Below the pieces are notes generated by a model. That model searched no databases and was not told the origin of the DNA. It worked only from the letters and a program-made list of their open reading frames with translations. Shown here piece after piece: positions 8,745 to 29,840 of a stretch of 45,441 nt of DNA. The translations under genes and the position numbers were made by a program. Position 1 is the stretch's first letter; each line of letters begins with the position of its first letter. This DNA is from Prevotella sp. GTDB taxonomy: Bacteria > Bacteroidota > Bacteroidia > Bacteroidales > Bacteroidaceae. The stretch spans positions 1-45,441 of the forward strand of contig JAFWQE010000137.1 in assembly GCA_017509155.1 (NCBI GenBank). The letters are read 5' to 3'.

Positions 8745-9455
8745 ATGGGCATGTTATTTGTAGTTCCGACTCCCGTGGGCAACATGGAGGACATGACGAT
8801 GCGGGCCGTTCGTGTGCTGAAGGAAGCCGACCTTATCTTGGCTGAGGACACACGCACGAGCAGTGTGTTGCTGAAGCATTTCGACATCAAGAACCACCTG
8901 CTGTCGCACCATAAGTTCAACGAGCATGGCACCAGTGCAGCTGTTGTTGATCGTCTTCGTGCCGGCCAGACGGTGGCGCTCATCAGCGACGCAGGCACGC
9001 CCGGCATCAGCGACCCAGGCTTTTTCCTGGTGCGCGAGGCCATTCGTGCGGGTCAGGAGGTGCAATGTCTGCCAGGTGCTACGGCATTCGTACCGGCACT
9101 TGTTAGCAGTGGGCTTCCCTGCGACCGCTTCTGTTTCGAGGGTTTCCTGCCGCAGAAGAAAGGGCGGCAGACGCGTCTGGAGAGTCTGAAGGACGAGTCG
9201 CGCACCATGGTCTTCTACGAGTCGCCCTACCGCGTGATAAAGACATTGCAGCAGTTTGCCGAGGTTTTCGGCGAAGACCGTCAGGTGAGCTGTTGCCGCG
9301 AAATATCGAAGATTCATGAGGAGAGCGTGCGTGGTACGCTGGCTGAGGTGATTGCCCATTTCAAGGAAACGGAGCCGCGTGGCGAGTTCGTCATCGTGCT
9401 GGCCGGTTCAGAACCGAAGAAGGAAAAGAAACAACATAACAAGGAAACAGTATGA
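8745..9455 (+). CDS. rsmI: 16S rRNA (cytidine1402-2'-O)-methyltransferase RsmI
   Basis: 236 residues of the tetrapyrrole-methylase superfamily. The start MGMLFVVPTPVGNMEDMTMR is the family's typical opening. AEDTRTSSVLL, ALISDAGTPGISDPG, CLPGATAFVPAL, FEGFLPQKKGRQ and FYESPYRV are all present. RsmI adds the 2'-O-methyl group to C1402 in the ribosomal P site using S-adenosylmethionine. The first of the two nearby ATGs (8745 and 8751) is taken because family members start there. The stop TGA overlaps the ATG of the next gene by four bases, so the lipoprotein downstream is probably translationally coupled. A promoter -7 box sits directly upstream. Confidence 0.96.
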   Translation: MGMLFVVPTPVGNMEDMTMRAVRVLKEADLILAEDTRTSSVLLKHFDIKNHLLSHHKFNEHGTSAAVVDRLRAGQTVALISDAGTPGISDPGFFLVREAIRAGQEVQCLPGATAFVPALVSSGLPCDRFCFEGFLPQKKGRQTRLESLKDESRTMVFYESPYRVIKTLQQFAEVFGEDRQVSCCREISKIHEESVRGTLAEVIAHFKETEPRGEFVIVLAGSEPKKEKKQHNKETV

Positions 9456-27121: not shown

Positions 27122-27685
27122 CTACGCGTGTGCCGACGTGAACGAGTCGAACCACGATTGATAGAGTCTGGTGTCGTCGTCGAGCTCGGGGTGGAAGGCC
27201 GTGGCGAACTGCCGCCCCTGGCGCACGGCCACGATGCGGTCGTCAACGCGGGCCAGCTCCTGCGCATCGTCGGCCAGCACCTCTTCGACAAATGGCGCGC
27301 GGATGAACGTCATGGGTACGTCGTCGCCGATGCCTTTCACTCGGCCAATGGTGTGGAAACTGCCCAGCTGACGTCCGTAGGCATTGCGCCTGACGCGTAT
27401 GTCCATGGTGCCGAGATAGCCCTTCGAGAGCAGAATCATGCCCGCACAGGTGCCGAAGACCGGCAGTCCACCGGCGATGGCGCTGCGGATGGGCTCCAGC
27501 AGGCCGAGGCGGCTGAGCAGCCGCATCTGCACCGTGCTCTCGCCACCCGGCAGGACGAGCGCGTCGGGACGGCCCTGCTGCCAGTCGCTGAGCTGGCGCA
27601 CCTGGAATGTCTCGGCACCCATCCGGCGCAGTGCCTCTTCATGTTCGGCAAAGGCCCCTTGCAAGGCCAGTACAGCAATCCTCAT
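27122..27685 (-). CDS. pdxT: Pyridoxal 5'-phosphate synthase glutaminase subunit PdxT
   Basis: 187 residues of the class I glutamine amidotransferase type. [14 protein letters not shown] opens the protein, [13 protein letters not shown] follows, the catalytic cysteine is C80 in VFGTCAGMI, and the His-Glu pair is in ATAFHPEL. PdxT frees ammonia from glutamine and passes it to PdxS. The ATG overlaps the pdxS stop by four bases (27682-27685), so the two are translationally coupled. It is the last gene of the leftward B6 unit. Sequence and length are standard. Confidence 0.97.
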
Positions 27686-28587
27686 ACGCCCCGCTCTGCC
27701 ATCAAGAGTTCAATCTCATGTTCGTTGATGCCCACCATGGCCTCGCCCAGGTCTTCGCTGAGGGTGGCCAGCATGTGTGCGTCCTGATAGTTGCTGACGG
27801 CCTGCACGATGGCTGCCGCACGCTTCTGCGGATTGCCGCTTTTGAAGATGCCGCTGCCAACGAACACACCCTCGGCGCCCAGCATCATCATGAGTGCAGC
27901 GTCGGCAGGCGTGGCCACGCCTCCTGCGGCGAAGTTCACCACGGGCAGCTTTCCGGTCGCGTGGACGTAGCGCACCAGGTCGAGCGGAGCCTGCAGTTGC
28001 TTGGCCGCCTCGAAGAGTTCGTCGTCGCTGATGGACACCAGTCGCCTGATTTCGCTCTGCATCAGTCTCATGTGACTGACGGCCTGCACCACGTCGCCTG
28101 TTCCGGGCTCGCCCTTGGTGCGTATCATCGTGGCGCCCTCGGCGATGCGTCGCAGGGCCTCGCCCAGGTTGCGCGCACCGCAGACGAACGGCACGGCAAA
28201 CTGCGTCTTGTCGATGTGGTAGATGTTGTCGGCGGGACTGAGCACCTCGCTCTCATCGATATAGTCGATGTCGATGGCCTGCAGGATGAGCGCCTCGGCC
28301 GTGTGGCCTATGCGGCATTTCGCCATGACGGGAATGCTGACGGCCTCCTGAATGCCCCGAATCATCTTCGGGTCGCTCATGCGGCTGACGCCACCCGCAG
28401 CGCGGATGTCGGCAGGAATGCGCTCCAGGGCCATCACGGCGCAGGCTCCGGCCTCTTCGGCGATGCGTGCCTGCTCAGGTGTGGTCACGTCCATGATAAC
28501 TCCGCCTTTCAGCATCTGCGCCAGCTGGCGGTTCAGGGCAGCGCGGTCGCCGCCGTTCACGATGTTCTTCTGTGTTTCTGTTGACAT
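27682..28587 (-). CDS. pdxS: Pyridoxal 5'-phosphate synthase lyase subunit PdxS
   Basis: 301 residues. The (beta/alpha)8 barrel of PdxS is clear: [10 protein letters not shown] with D33, VMAKCRIGH with catalytic K90, RTKGEPGTG with K158, and [18 protein letters not shown] near the end. PdxS makes PLP from ribose 5-phosphate, glyceraldehyde 3-phosphate and ammonia from PdxT. The usual GntR/MocR-type regulator PdxR is not next to it; instead a ThiD-like/AraC fusion lies 177 bases upstream on the same strand. I found no good -7 box in that gap, so pdxS may be transcribed from the upstream gene. Confidence 0.98.
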
Positions 28588-28627
28588 AGTTGTATTCTGG
28601 GTTTATGTTTTTTTCTGTTTCGGGAAG

Positions 28628-28734
28628 TTACAGGAGTCACAGGGGTCACAGGAGTTTCAGACGAGACATAAAGAGCAAAAAAACAAAATGAGTACTGACA
28701 GAGCTATTGTCTGTCACTCCTGCGACTCCTGTAA
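28628..28734. repeat. Imperfect inverted repeat between the AraC fusion and pdxS
   Basis: Bases 28628-28647 (TTACAGGAGTCACAGG...) pair with 28715-28734 at 17 of 20 positions. The loop holds a second hairpin, TGACAGA/TCTGTCA, at 28696-28716. The arms are made of short repeats of CAGGAGT/ACTCCTG. If transcribed from the regulator gene it would fold in the pdxS leader. Confidence 0.65.
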
Positions 28735-28764
28735 GTCCTGAACTACACTCAATCGAAGGTCGTC

Positions 28765-29670
28765 TTACAATCGGTGCTTTTGTTGATATTCAGTGGGTGA
28801 AAGTCCTTTCCGCTGCTTGAAAAAACGCGAGAGATGGGCCTGCGACGAGAAACCCAGACTGCCGGCAATATCCTTCAGCGGGCGGTTGGTGGTCGTGAGC
28901 AGTGAGGCTATCTCCGTTGTGATGCGCCCGTCGATGATGGCCTTGGGCGACCGGTCGGCAATGCGCCGCGTGACTTGTCCCAGATAGCGCGGACTGACAT
29001 TGAGCTGCTCGGCATAGAACGACACGTCGGCATAGCGGTTGAAGTATCGCTCCACGGCATCGAGGAACTGGTTGTAGAGCTCCTTGCTGCGGTTGTTTCC
29101 GTCGGTATAGTCGGCGGGCAGCTGGCGCAGGAACGTCCGTGCGTGGAGCAGTGCCTGCTCGGTGGTCTCGCCCAGACTGAGGTAGTAGGCCACGGCCGAG
29201 GCCAGCTGGTTGGCGTGGCCATGGCGACGCGGCGTCGTGGGCAGGTCGGAAGGCTCGAGCACCACCGTACACAAGGGGACAAGCAGGCGCTGGATGGCCT
29301 CGTAGACCGTGGGCGACACCAGCTGCTCGCCCTTCGTAGACTGCAGCACCGGAGCATAGATGATGTGGTGCGGACGGTGTTTCTGAAGCAGTTCGGCCAG
29401 TGTCTCCACGACATCGGTGCGGCGCACCAGGCCGATTTTCACCACCTGTGGCTGCAGGTCGTTCACAATGGCCTCCATCTGCTGGCGCACCACCGCGGCC
29501 GGCAGGTCGTGGAACAGCTGAATGCCAAGCGTATTCTGGACGGTGATGGACGTCACCACCGAGGCCGCCGTTCCGCCAAGCTTGCCAATGAAGCGAATGT
29601 CGGCCTGCACGCCGCTGCCGCCGCTCCCGTCGCTGCCAGTAATGGTCAATATGGTCTTGTTCATGTTCAT
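28765..29670 (-). CDS. ThiD-like (degenerate kinase) domain fused to an AraC DNA-binding domain; candidate B6 regulator
   Basis: 301 residues from the ATG at 29670. The frame is open to 29754, but a promoter lies inside that extension. Residues 3-142 match the front of hydroxymethylpyrimidine/pyridoxal kinases: ILTITGSDGSGGSGVQADIR, SITVQNTLGIQ, KIGLV, then LVPLCTVVLEPSDLP. The part that should follow, about 70 residues with the nucleotide site, is missing, and the catalytic GTGC/GTGD loop reads HGHANQ before LASAVAYYLSLG. Residues about 205-301 are an AraC domain with both helix-turn-helix motifs (FYAEQLNVSPRYLGQVTR; IAGSLGFSSQAHLSRFFKQR). Next to pdxS-pdxT it is most simply a transcription regulator sensing a B6 or HMP compound. 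Sensing and target are inferred. Confidence 0.85.
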   Translation of the reverse strand: MNMNKTILTITGSDGSGGSGVQADIRFIGKLGGTAASVVTSITVQNTLGIQLFHDLPAAVVRQQMEAIVNDLQPQVVKIGLVRRTDVVETLAELLQKHRPHHIIYAPVLQSTKGEQLVSPTVYEAIQRLLVPLCTVVLEPSDLPTTPRRHGHANQLASAVAYYLSLGETTEQALLHARTFLRQLPADYTDGNNRSKELYNQFLDAVERYFNRYADVSFYAEQLNVSPRYLGQVTRRIADRSPKAIIDGRITTEIASLLTTTNRPLKDIAGSLGFSSQAHLSRFFKQRKGLSPTEYQQKHRL

Positions 29671-29690: not shown

Positions 29691-29722
29691 CAAAGGAACA
29701 CGAAAAAACACAAACAGCCAAA
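29691..29722 (-). promoter_or_regulatory. Promoter of the ThiD-like/AraC gene
   Basis: On the minus strand TTTG (complement of 29719-29722) is followed after 20 bases by TTCCTTTG (complement of 29691-29698), one mismatch from the -7 consensus. It fixes the start at 29670 or 29664 rather than 29754. Confidence 0.45.
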
Positions 29723-29788
29723 AAATATTCCCGTAATGATAAAAGAAAGTTCATTTTTGCAAAACCGATGACGATGAGATGGGCGGGT

Positions 29789-29840
29789 AGGTATGAGGAG
29801 TTTCAGGAGTGCAGGAGTTCTCTGCAACTCCTCAATACCT
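29789..29840. repeat. Imperfect inverted repeat upstream of the AraC fusion
   Basis: AGGTATGAGGAGTT (29789-29802) pairs with AACTCCTCAATACCT (29826-29840) with one bulge. The loop again contains CAGGAGT repeats, as in the element at 28628-28734. Confidence 0.6.

Follow-up and report, generated by a model that had tools for sequence, protein, structure and literature searches.

A ThiD-like pseudokinase joined to an AraC domain as a candidate vitamin B6-sensing regulator of pdxST in Bacteroidales

Architecture of the locus

The window, which is the whole 45,441-nucleotide stretch of a Prevotella sp. contig that we analysed, carries a reverse-strand gene in which part of a ThiD-family kinase is joined to an AraC-type DNA-binding domain, upstream of the genes for PLP synthase:

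28765..29664, minus strand: fusion gene, predicted ThiD-family pseudokinase plus AraC DNA-binding domain (open reading frame of 299 amino acids)
29260..29655, minus strand: substrate-side half of the ThiD fold, residues 4–135 (GSDGSGGSGVQAD, ITVQNTLG, KIGL), placed by Pfam, solved ThiDs and conservation
29206..29223, minus strand: HGHANQ, residues 148–153, apparent remnant of the HGTGCT loop with Cys changed to Asn, placed by loop comparison with ThiDs
28780..29016, minus strand: AraC-type helix–turn–helix domain, residues 217–295 (HTH_18, E 1e-18)
27682..28587, minus strand: pdxS, PLP synthase subunit (SOR_SNZ, E 1e-105)
27122..27685, minus strand: pdxT, glutaminase subunit (SNO, E 6e-50)

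The likely start of the fusion is the ATG at 29664 (MNKTIL...), and the stop is at 28765. As an initial annotation had described, the gene lies upstream of pdxS–pdxT on the same strand; pdxS begins 177 nt downstream and overlaps pdxT. The first half of the Pfam domain Phos_pyr_kin covers residues 12–135 (E 6e-39; 134 bits against a cut-off of 27), the ThiD-fold motifs quoted in that annotation are present in this N-terminal part, and its top solved relatives are phosphomethylpyrimidine kinases, aligned over approximately residues 4–139. The C-terminal AraC domain is complete, as had been claimed, with 67.8 bits for HTH_18 (cut-off 33.6) and 47.9 for HTH_AraC (cut-off 26.6). TIGR00097, the best-scoring ThiD model, gives the whole protein 120 bits, below its curated cut-off of 204.95, and in place of the HGTGC active-site loop the protein has HGHANQ, a region that aligns weakly with the HGTGC loop of the solved phosphomethylpyrimidine kinases. 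Judged by score and loop, the protein is not a ThiD. GntR and aminotransferase-like domains, which characterize PdxR and MocR proteins, are absent from its Pfam matches at E ≤ 0.1. Because the same architecture occurs in 73 fusions, that of the window included, the fusion is a real gene and chance is excluded.

A dispersed inverted-repeat element with the 9-bp unit CAGGAGTTA lies at about 28625–28745 of the window and again at about 29795–29830. The sequence CAGGAGTNNCAGGAGT (at most one mismatch) has 326 matches in the genome of the window, compared with 1 for a reversed control, and several of the listed matches form facing pairs approximately 78 nt apart. By eye, one inverted-repeat copy separates the fusion from pdxS, in a stretch that folds at −51.6 kcal/mol (z −4.3). 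These features suggest a REP- or MITE-like element.

Distribution and linkage to pdxST

We searched 150 genomes of the genus, many of them incomplete, with the window protein and obtained some match at E ≤ 1e-20 in 87. Where kinase-type and AraC-type matches coincided, fusions were identified in 66 genomes, that of the window included; with genome G295, added later through its pdxS locus, the fusion is detected in 67 of the 150. Because G295 was recovered only by that route, divergent fusions may have been missed. PdxS is encoded in 71 of the same genomes, and all 67 fusion genomes are among them (Fisher p 4e-37 for co-occurrence before the addition of G295 and with kinship ignored; 66/66 fusion genomes have pdxS and 66/71 the reverse). 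The four pdxS genomes without a detected fusion are G387, G403, G431 and G441. The PdxS of G403 is 92% identical to that of the window, yet no fusion was detected there.

The initial annotation had named the same fusion beside pdxST in other Bacteroidales as a check, and this is what we found. Among 65 loci fetched from the genus, pdxS is downstream on the same strand in 57, convergent in one (L133) and outside the fetched stretch in seven, for which pdxS is located elsewhere in the same genomes. The gap to pdxS is at most 30 nt, or the genes overlap, in 29 of the 57 same-strand loci, judged by longest-frame starts; three pdxS frames that extended too far upstream were read with a genus-wide PdxS search. 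In G295 the two genes are convergent. A sample of 295 genomes from the order contains fusions in the genome of the window and in five others, with at least six fusions outside the genus, since long frames matching the kinase alone were checked in part. Five of these six adjoin pdxS, three of them divergently (L038, L040 and L041), and L039 is a second copy of the fusion with no pdxS nearby. Across the phylum, 129 of 395 genomes have matches at E ≤ 1e-45, and only the match in the window's own genome extends into the AraC domain.

Named records yielded 47 fusion loci that partly overlap with the genus genomes, and 37 of these include pdxS. The carriers include Prevotella ruminicola KHT3, Xylanibacter ruminicola D31d, P. 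denticola, P. veroralis, P. multiformis, Hoylesella marshii and P. koreensis. In the other ten loci, pdxS is missing from the fetched stretch, which in some cases ended early at a contig end; among them are Palleniella muris and a group whose loops resemble HGRCNE. Fusions of this loop type (L039, L188, L190 and L192) come from Paludibacteraceae and other Bacteroidales, and none has pdxS in the fetched stretch, which in L192 leaves 33 nt of room downstream; L187 and L194 have similar loops. Other neighbours of the fusion are not conserved: the commonest family occurs in 4 of 94 neighbour proteins, a set that leaves out L116, eight near-duplicate loci and neighbours longer than 700 amino acids.

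A kinase fold without its catalytic residues

We compared residues whose catalytic and substrate-binding roles we take as known from ThiD structures. At the position of the ThiD active-site Cys, the 73 fusions have Asn (50), Gly (17) or Ser (6), and none has Cys. No fusion has KGGH anywhere or TPN within residues 110–175, and an R/Q-GG-H/K variant of KGGH is present in nine. All 18 hand-picked stand-alone ThiDs from Bacteroidales have TPN, KGGH and the Cys, with one loop reading HGPGC. On the substrate side, the Asp of QAD and the Gly and Asp of GSD are retained in 73/73 fusions, as are the His and Gly that precede the Cys position, and the Gln of VQN is retained in 71. The annotated replacement of the catalytic loop thus applies to TGCT, which has become HANQ, but not to the whole loop, since the HG of HGTGCT is still there.

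By these residues, the kinase is catalytically dead in every fusion examined. A working kinase that also regulates, as a trigger enzyme would, could explain the high scores of full-length forms against the kinase family (L139, E 2e-57), but with the catalytic Cys absent from all 73 fusions and KGGH from every one, and a separate pyridoxamine kinase in the genome of the window, we regard this as extremely unlikely.

The segment on the ATP side, measured from LLPLC to HG, comprises 70–77 residues in 21 fusions, 23–44 in 21 and 9–16 in 31, compared with 72–75 in eight ThiDs. In the window protein (LVPLCT to HG) it has shrunk to 14 residues, so that the loss of an ATP-side stretch proposed at the outset stands, at approximately 60 residues instead of 70. 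In a tree of the 73 fusions and the eight ThiDs, a clade of 16 long-form fusions groups with ThiD (98/89). On a second, quick tree, which was rooted with ThiD, built without the ATP-side segment and without L116 (258 amino acids, with an internal stretch missing) and in which 27 of 76 inner branches are weakly supported, the loss of the Cys requires one change and the length classes require six, of which well-supported branches force only one per class. A full-length dead kinase was thus likely the ancestor, from which the short forms would derive.

Four pairs have dS between 0.1 and 1, and in these the kinase-derived part shows dN/dS ratios of 0.055, 0.072, 0.077 and 0.097. Thirteen pairs were compared; L117/L119 was dropped because its start was misaligned, L121/L122 is almost unchanged, and the remaining pairs have dS above 1 or undefined, including the two pairs with the window protein, whose ratios are 0.11 and 0.16. 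Such strong purifying selection indicates that this part is no decaying relic. The kinase part could instead be a mere scaffold for dimerization or protein interaction, for example one that senses PdxK or PdxT and binds no small ligand, and the absence of most of the ATP-side segment from the short forms and of the catalytic Cys from all forms would suit such a role. However, substrate-side residues are among the invariant positions of an alignment of 44 sequences (that of the window and 43 relatives), and we consider a scaffold very unlikely.

A candidate operator at a fixed distance from the promoter

The upstream regions of the nearest relatives of the window share one element, which in the window lies beside a putative promoter:

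29713..29765, minus strand: predicted operator, two half-sites approximately 21 bp apart (matrix and profile; this site is in the training set)
29719..29722, minus strand: TTTG at −33, adjoining the proximal half-site, 20 nt before the −7 box (read from the sequence)
29691..29698, minus strand: −7 box TTCCTTTG (match to the Bacteroidetes consensus)

A matrix built from nine upstream sites was applied to 48 held-out loci of the same clade, some of which are near-copies of each other. In 41 of these, compared with 1.3 expected, the best match of the whole locus precedes the fusion or pdxS by at most 250 nt. The seven misses are L039, L081, L092, L104, L111, L112 and L126. Two of them, L081 and L126, carry an operator-like site at their unlinked pdxS (L148 and L147; G411 and G336), the site in L092 is the second-best match, and that in L112 is 0.47 kb upstream; L039, L104 and L111 are misses without an explanation. 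The best site stands in front of pdxS, not of the fusion, in L086, L087, L088, L114, L116 and L123, the last of which has the two genes apart, and L084 has one site at each gene. Within this clade, therefore, the site tends to stay with pdxS. A window-type site occurs at only two of the seven unlinked pdxS loci, and none of the four pdxS-only genomes has its best matrix match at pdxS.

In the long-form clade the matrix fails (3/16 loci, binomial p 0.1). With one mismatch allowed, a related motif, GGAAY-N15–17-GGAAY, precedes pdxS at 8 of 14 loci, six of which match exactly with N16, compared with 0.11 expected per locus; the motif was defined post hoc on the same sequences.

A profile from 30 sites, 29 of them from the 150 genus genomes, finds one significant site in the genome of the window, the window's own training-set site (E 9.6e-10; next 0.14). 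The profile has 52 matches at E ≤ 1e-3 across the 150 genus genomes, and 48 of them precede the fusion or pdxS by no more than 700 nt; the regulator therefore looks local. The other four comprise a second copy in G423, a site before a dehydrogenase gene in G406 and single sites in G421 and G321. The G406 site (L244:798–847, E 9.7e-7) precedes a short-chain dehydrogenase gene and is a possible second target in one genome.

Some of the operator sequences have inverted-repeat symmetry by eye. In G423 the operator flanks an insert on both sides (L092:5926–5978 and 9039–9091). By eye, this insert seems to hold genes for a DNA methylase and an HNH-type protein along with another ORF, and a cassette may have inserted into the promoter and duplicated the operator site. 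The fusion in L247 (G317:C43:18200–19200) is preceded by three consecutive operator-like matches, and G394 has the same arrangement.

The promoter consensus of Bacteroidetes is TAnnTTTG at −7 with TTTG at −33. Counted from the GGAAC column, 49 of the 51 sites have a TAnnTTTG box (at most one mismatch) that begins 28–29 nt further on, compared with 0.5 per other offset. We infer from this fixed spacing the geometry of an activator that touches the polymerase near −33. Support for regulation of pdxST by the fusion is good but indirect.

Ligand and proposed mechanism

The context of the fusion points to vitamin B6. In one locus (L106), the order is fusion, pdxS, pdxT, pdxK, with the pyridoxamine kinase gene on the same strand. 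The genome of the window, which is 82% complete, encodes a separate pyridoxamine kinase (248.9 against a curated cut-off of 231), and B6 salvage is therefore probably possible. No MocR-type regulator was seen in this genome, in which the sole GntR match lies in a 132-amino-acid frame, and no stand-alone ThiD was recognized; at this completeness, such absences are soft. Given the pdxST context, the lack of thiamine signals in the material examined and the lack of a MocR regulator in the window's genome, the ligand is probably a B6 vitamer, pyridoxal or PLP.

HMP, which the initial annotation had offered as another ligand, is disfavoured. A pdxST regulator that senses HMP or HMP phosphate, and so ties thiamine to B6 synthesis, would accord with the conserved motifs, which are those of ThiD, and with the sensor being closest to ThiD models, although the TIGR00097 score is under the cut-off. 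Against this, a TPP riboswitch was found in none of ten sources searched, no thiamine family is among the 25 commonest of 102 Pfam families in the 94 neighbour proteins, and only 22 of the 67 fusion genomes, a lower bound, have a separate ThiD-like place among the matches listed (E ≤ 1e-20, at most 15 candidates scored per genome). Sensing of HMP is thus quite unlikely.

Palleniella-type loci (L197:3526–10070; L135, L136 and L137) have a FucP-family transporter gene before the fusion, and in L197, L135 and L136 a pyridoxamine kinase is encoded a few kilobases away; L197 and L135 look like one and the same contig. The transporter might carry a B6 vitamer. In the accessible part of an RNA-seq study of Prevotella bivia (PMC11410844), pdxT, pdxS and a ‘bifunctional HMP kinase’ (PREBIDRAFT_RS05120) are upregulated; we do not count this as evidence here.

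We think it likely that the fusion activates pdxST locally and that its dead-kinase domain is a sensor of a B6 vitamer. The protein would be a one-component transcription factor for pdxST, derived from a ThiD-family kinase in which the catalytic Cys appears to have been lost a single time, at the root of the fusion family. Most of the ATP-side segment would have been lost later in many lineages, with the substrate side kept under strong selection, and a B6 vitamer (pyridoxal or PLP) would most likely bind in the former substrate or product site. The AraC domain is predicted to bind the two half-sites approximately 21 bp apart. Because the proximal half-site abuts the −33 element, the fusion would most likely act at low ligand levels to activate both its own gene and pdxST, and would cease to do so once the ligand is bound. 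A point against this model is that the REP-like hairpin between the fusion and pdxS could weaken read-through.

The sign of regulation is unreadable from sequence and the site abuts the promoter, and the same protein could act as a repressor or as an activator that requires its ligand. Repression sits poorly with the constant spacing between the site and the downstream −7 box in 49 of 51 cases, which is the usual activator layout, and a requirement for ligand runs counter to feedback logic, which favours activity at scarce B6, as for PdxR in the available part of PMC5320631; together we rate these two variants as unlikely. We infer the binding of the fusion to the element, the identity of the ligand, activation as opposed to repression and the direction of the ligand effect from genome sequences. 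The original idea of a kinase turned sensor in control of pdxST withstood the tests that could be run, namely linkage, co-occurrence, Cys loss in 73/73 fusions, constraint and a candidate operator at pdxS in loci that have the two genes apart.

Relation to known regulators

The fusion shares with ThiD (HMP-P kinase; PF08543, TIGR00097) an N-terminal half with GSD..GG.G.QAD and ITVQN, and common descent is indicated by sequence. The fusions differ from ThiD in having no active-site Cys, TPN or KGGH, and the window protein is approximately 60 residues short and fused to an AraC domain. AraC/XylS activators have the same type of DNA-binding domain, and the candidate tandem half-sites beside the promoter resemble theirs. 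The sensor of AraC itself is a cupin-like domain, whereas that of the fusion would be a pseudokinase. An archaeal ThiN-fused regulator, reportedly named ThiR and studied in 2017, similarly places a vitamin-pathway enzyme domain inside a transcriptional regulator of the same pathway, but with another enzyme, another vitamin and an archaeal host. The fusion would thus be an enzyme-derived sensor on a one-component regulator.

PdxR, of the MocR subfamily, controls pdxST, with the apo form as activator and PLP as anti-activator in several species; MocR factors are described in three Bacteroidetes lineages, and PdxR mostly in Proteobacteria, Firmicutes and Actinobacteria (PMC5320631, in the part available). 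A reconstruction of B-vitamin pathways in the gut microbiome, in its accessible portion, names PdxR as the B6 regulator (PMC6593275). The fusion shares the target pdxST, as predicted from linkage and the candidate operator, but combines AraC and kinase-like domains, where PdxR has GntR and aminotransferase-like domains. It may therefore work like PdxR without belonging to the PdxR family. We recognized no description of a ThiD–AraC fusion in the literature searched, a scope outside which most subscription papers fall, and the accessible part of PMC10434189 contains nothing on such a fusion.

Implications

Because they score well with ThiD families, the fusions may be mistaken in annotation for kinases of the thiamine pathway, an error that would mislead attempts to reconstruct the metabolism of gut and rumen communities. 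Bacteroidales that use pdxST would gain a regulator and an operator, neither of which we found described in the literature searched. On balance we favour the view that Bacteroidales possess a distinct family of B6-feedback regulators with no relation to PdxR. In these proteins a dead ThiD kinase would sense PLP or pyridoxal and the AraC domain would activate pdxST, and living species would represent successive stages from kinase to sensor as the ATP-binding half was shed. Members of the family range by degrees from a complete kinase fold to a sensor that mostly lacks the ATP side, and the family may serve as a model for the evolution of enzymes into sensors.
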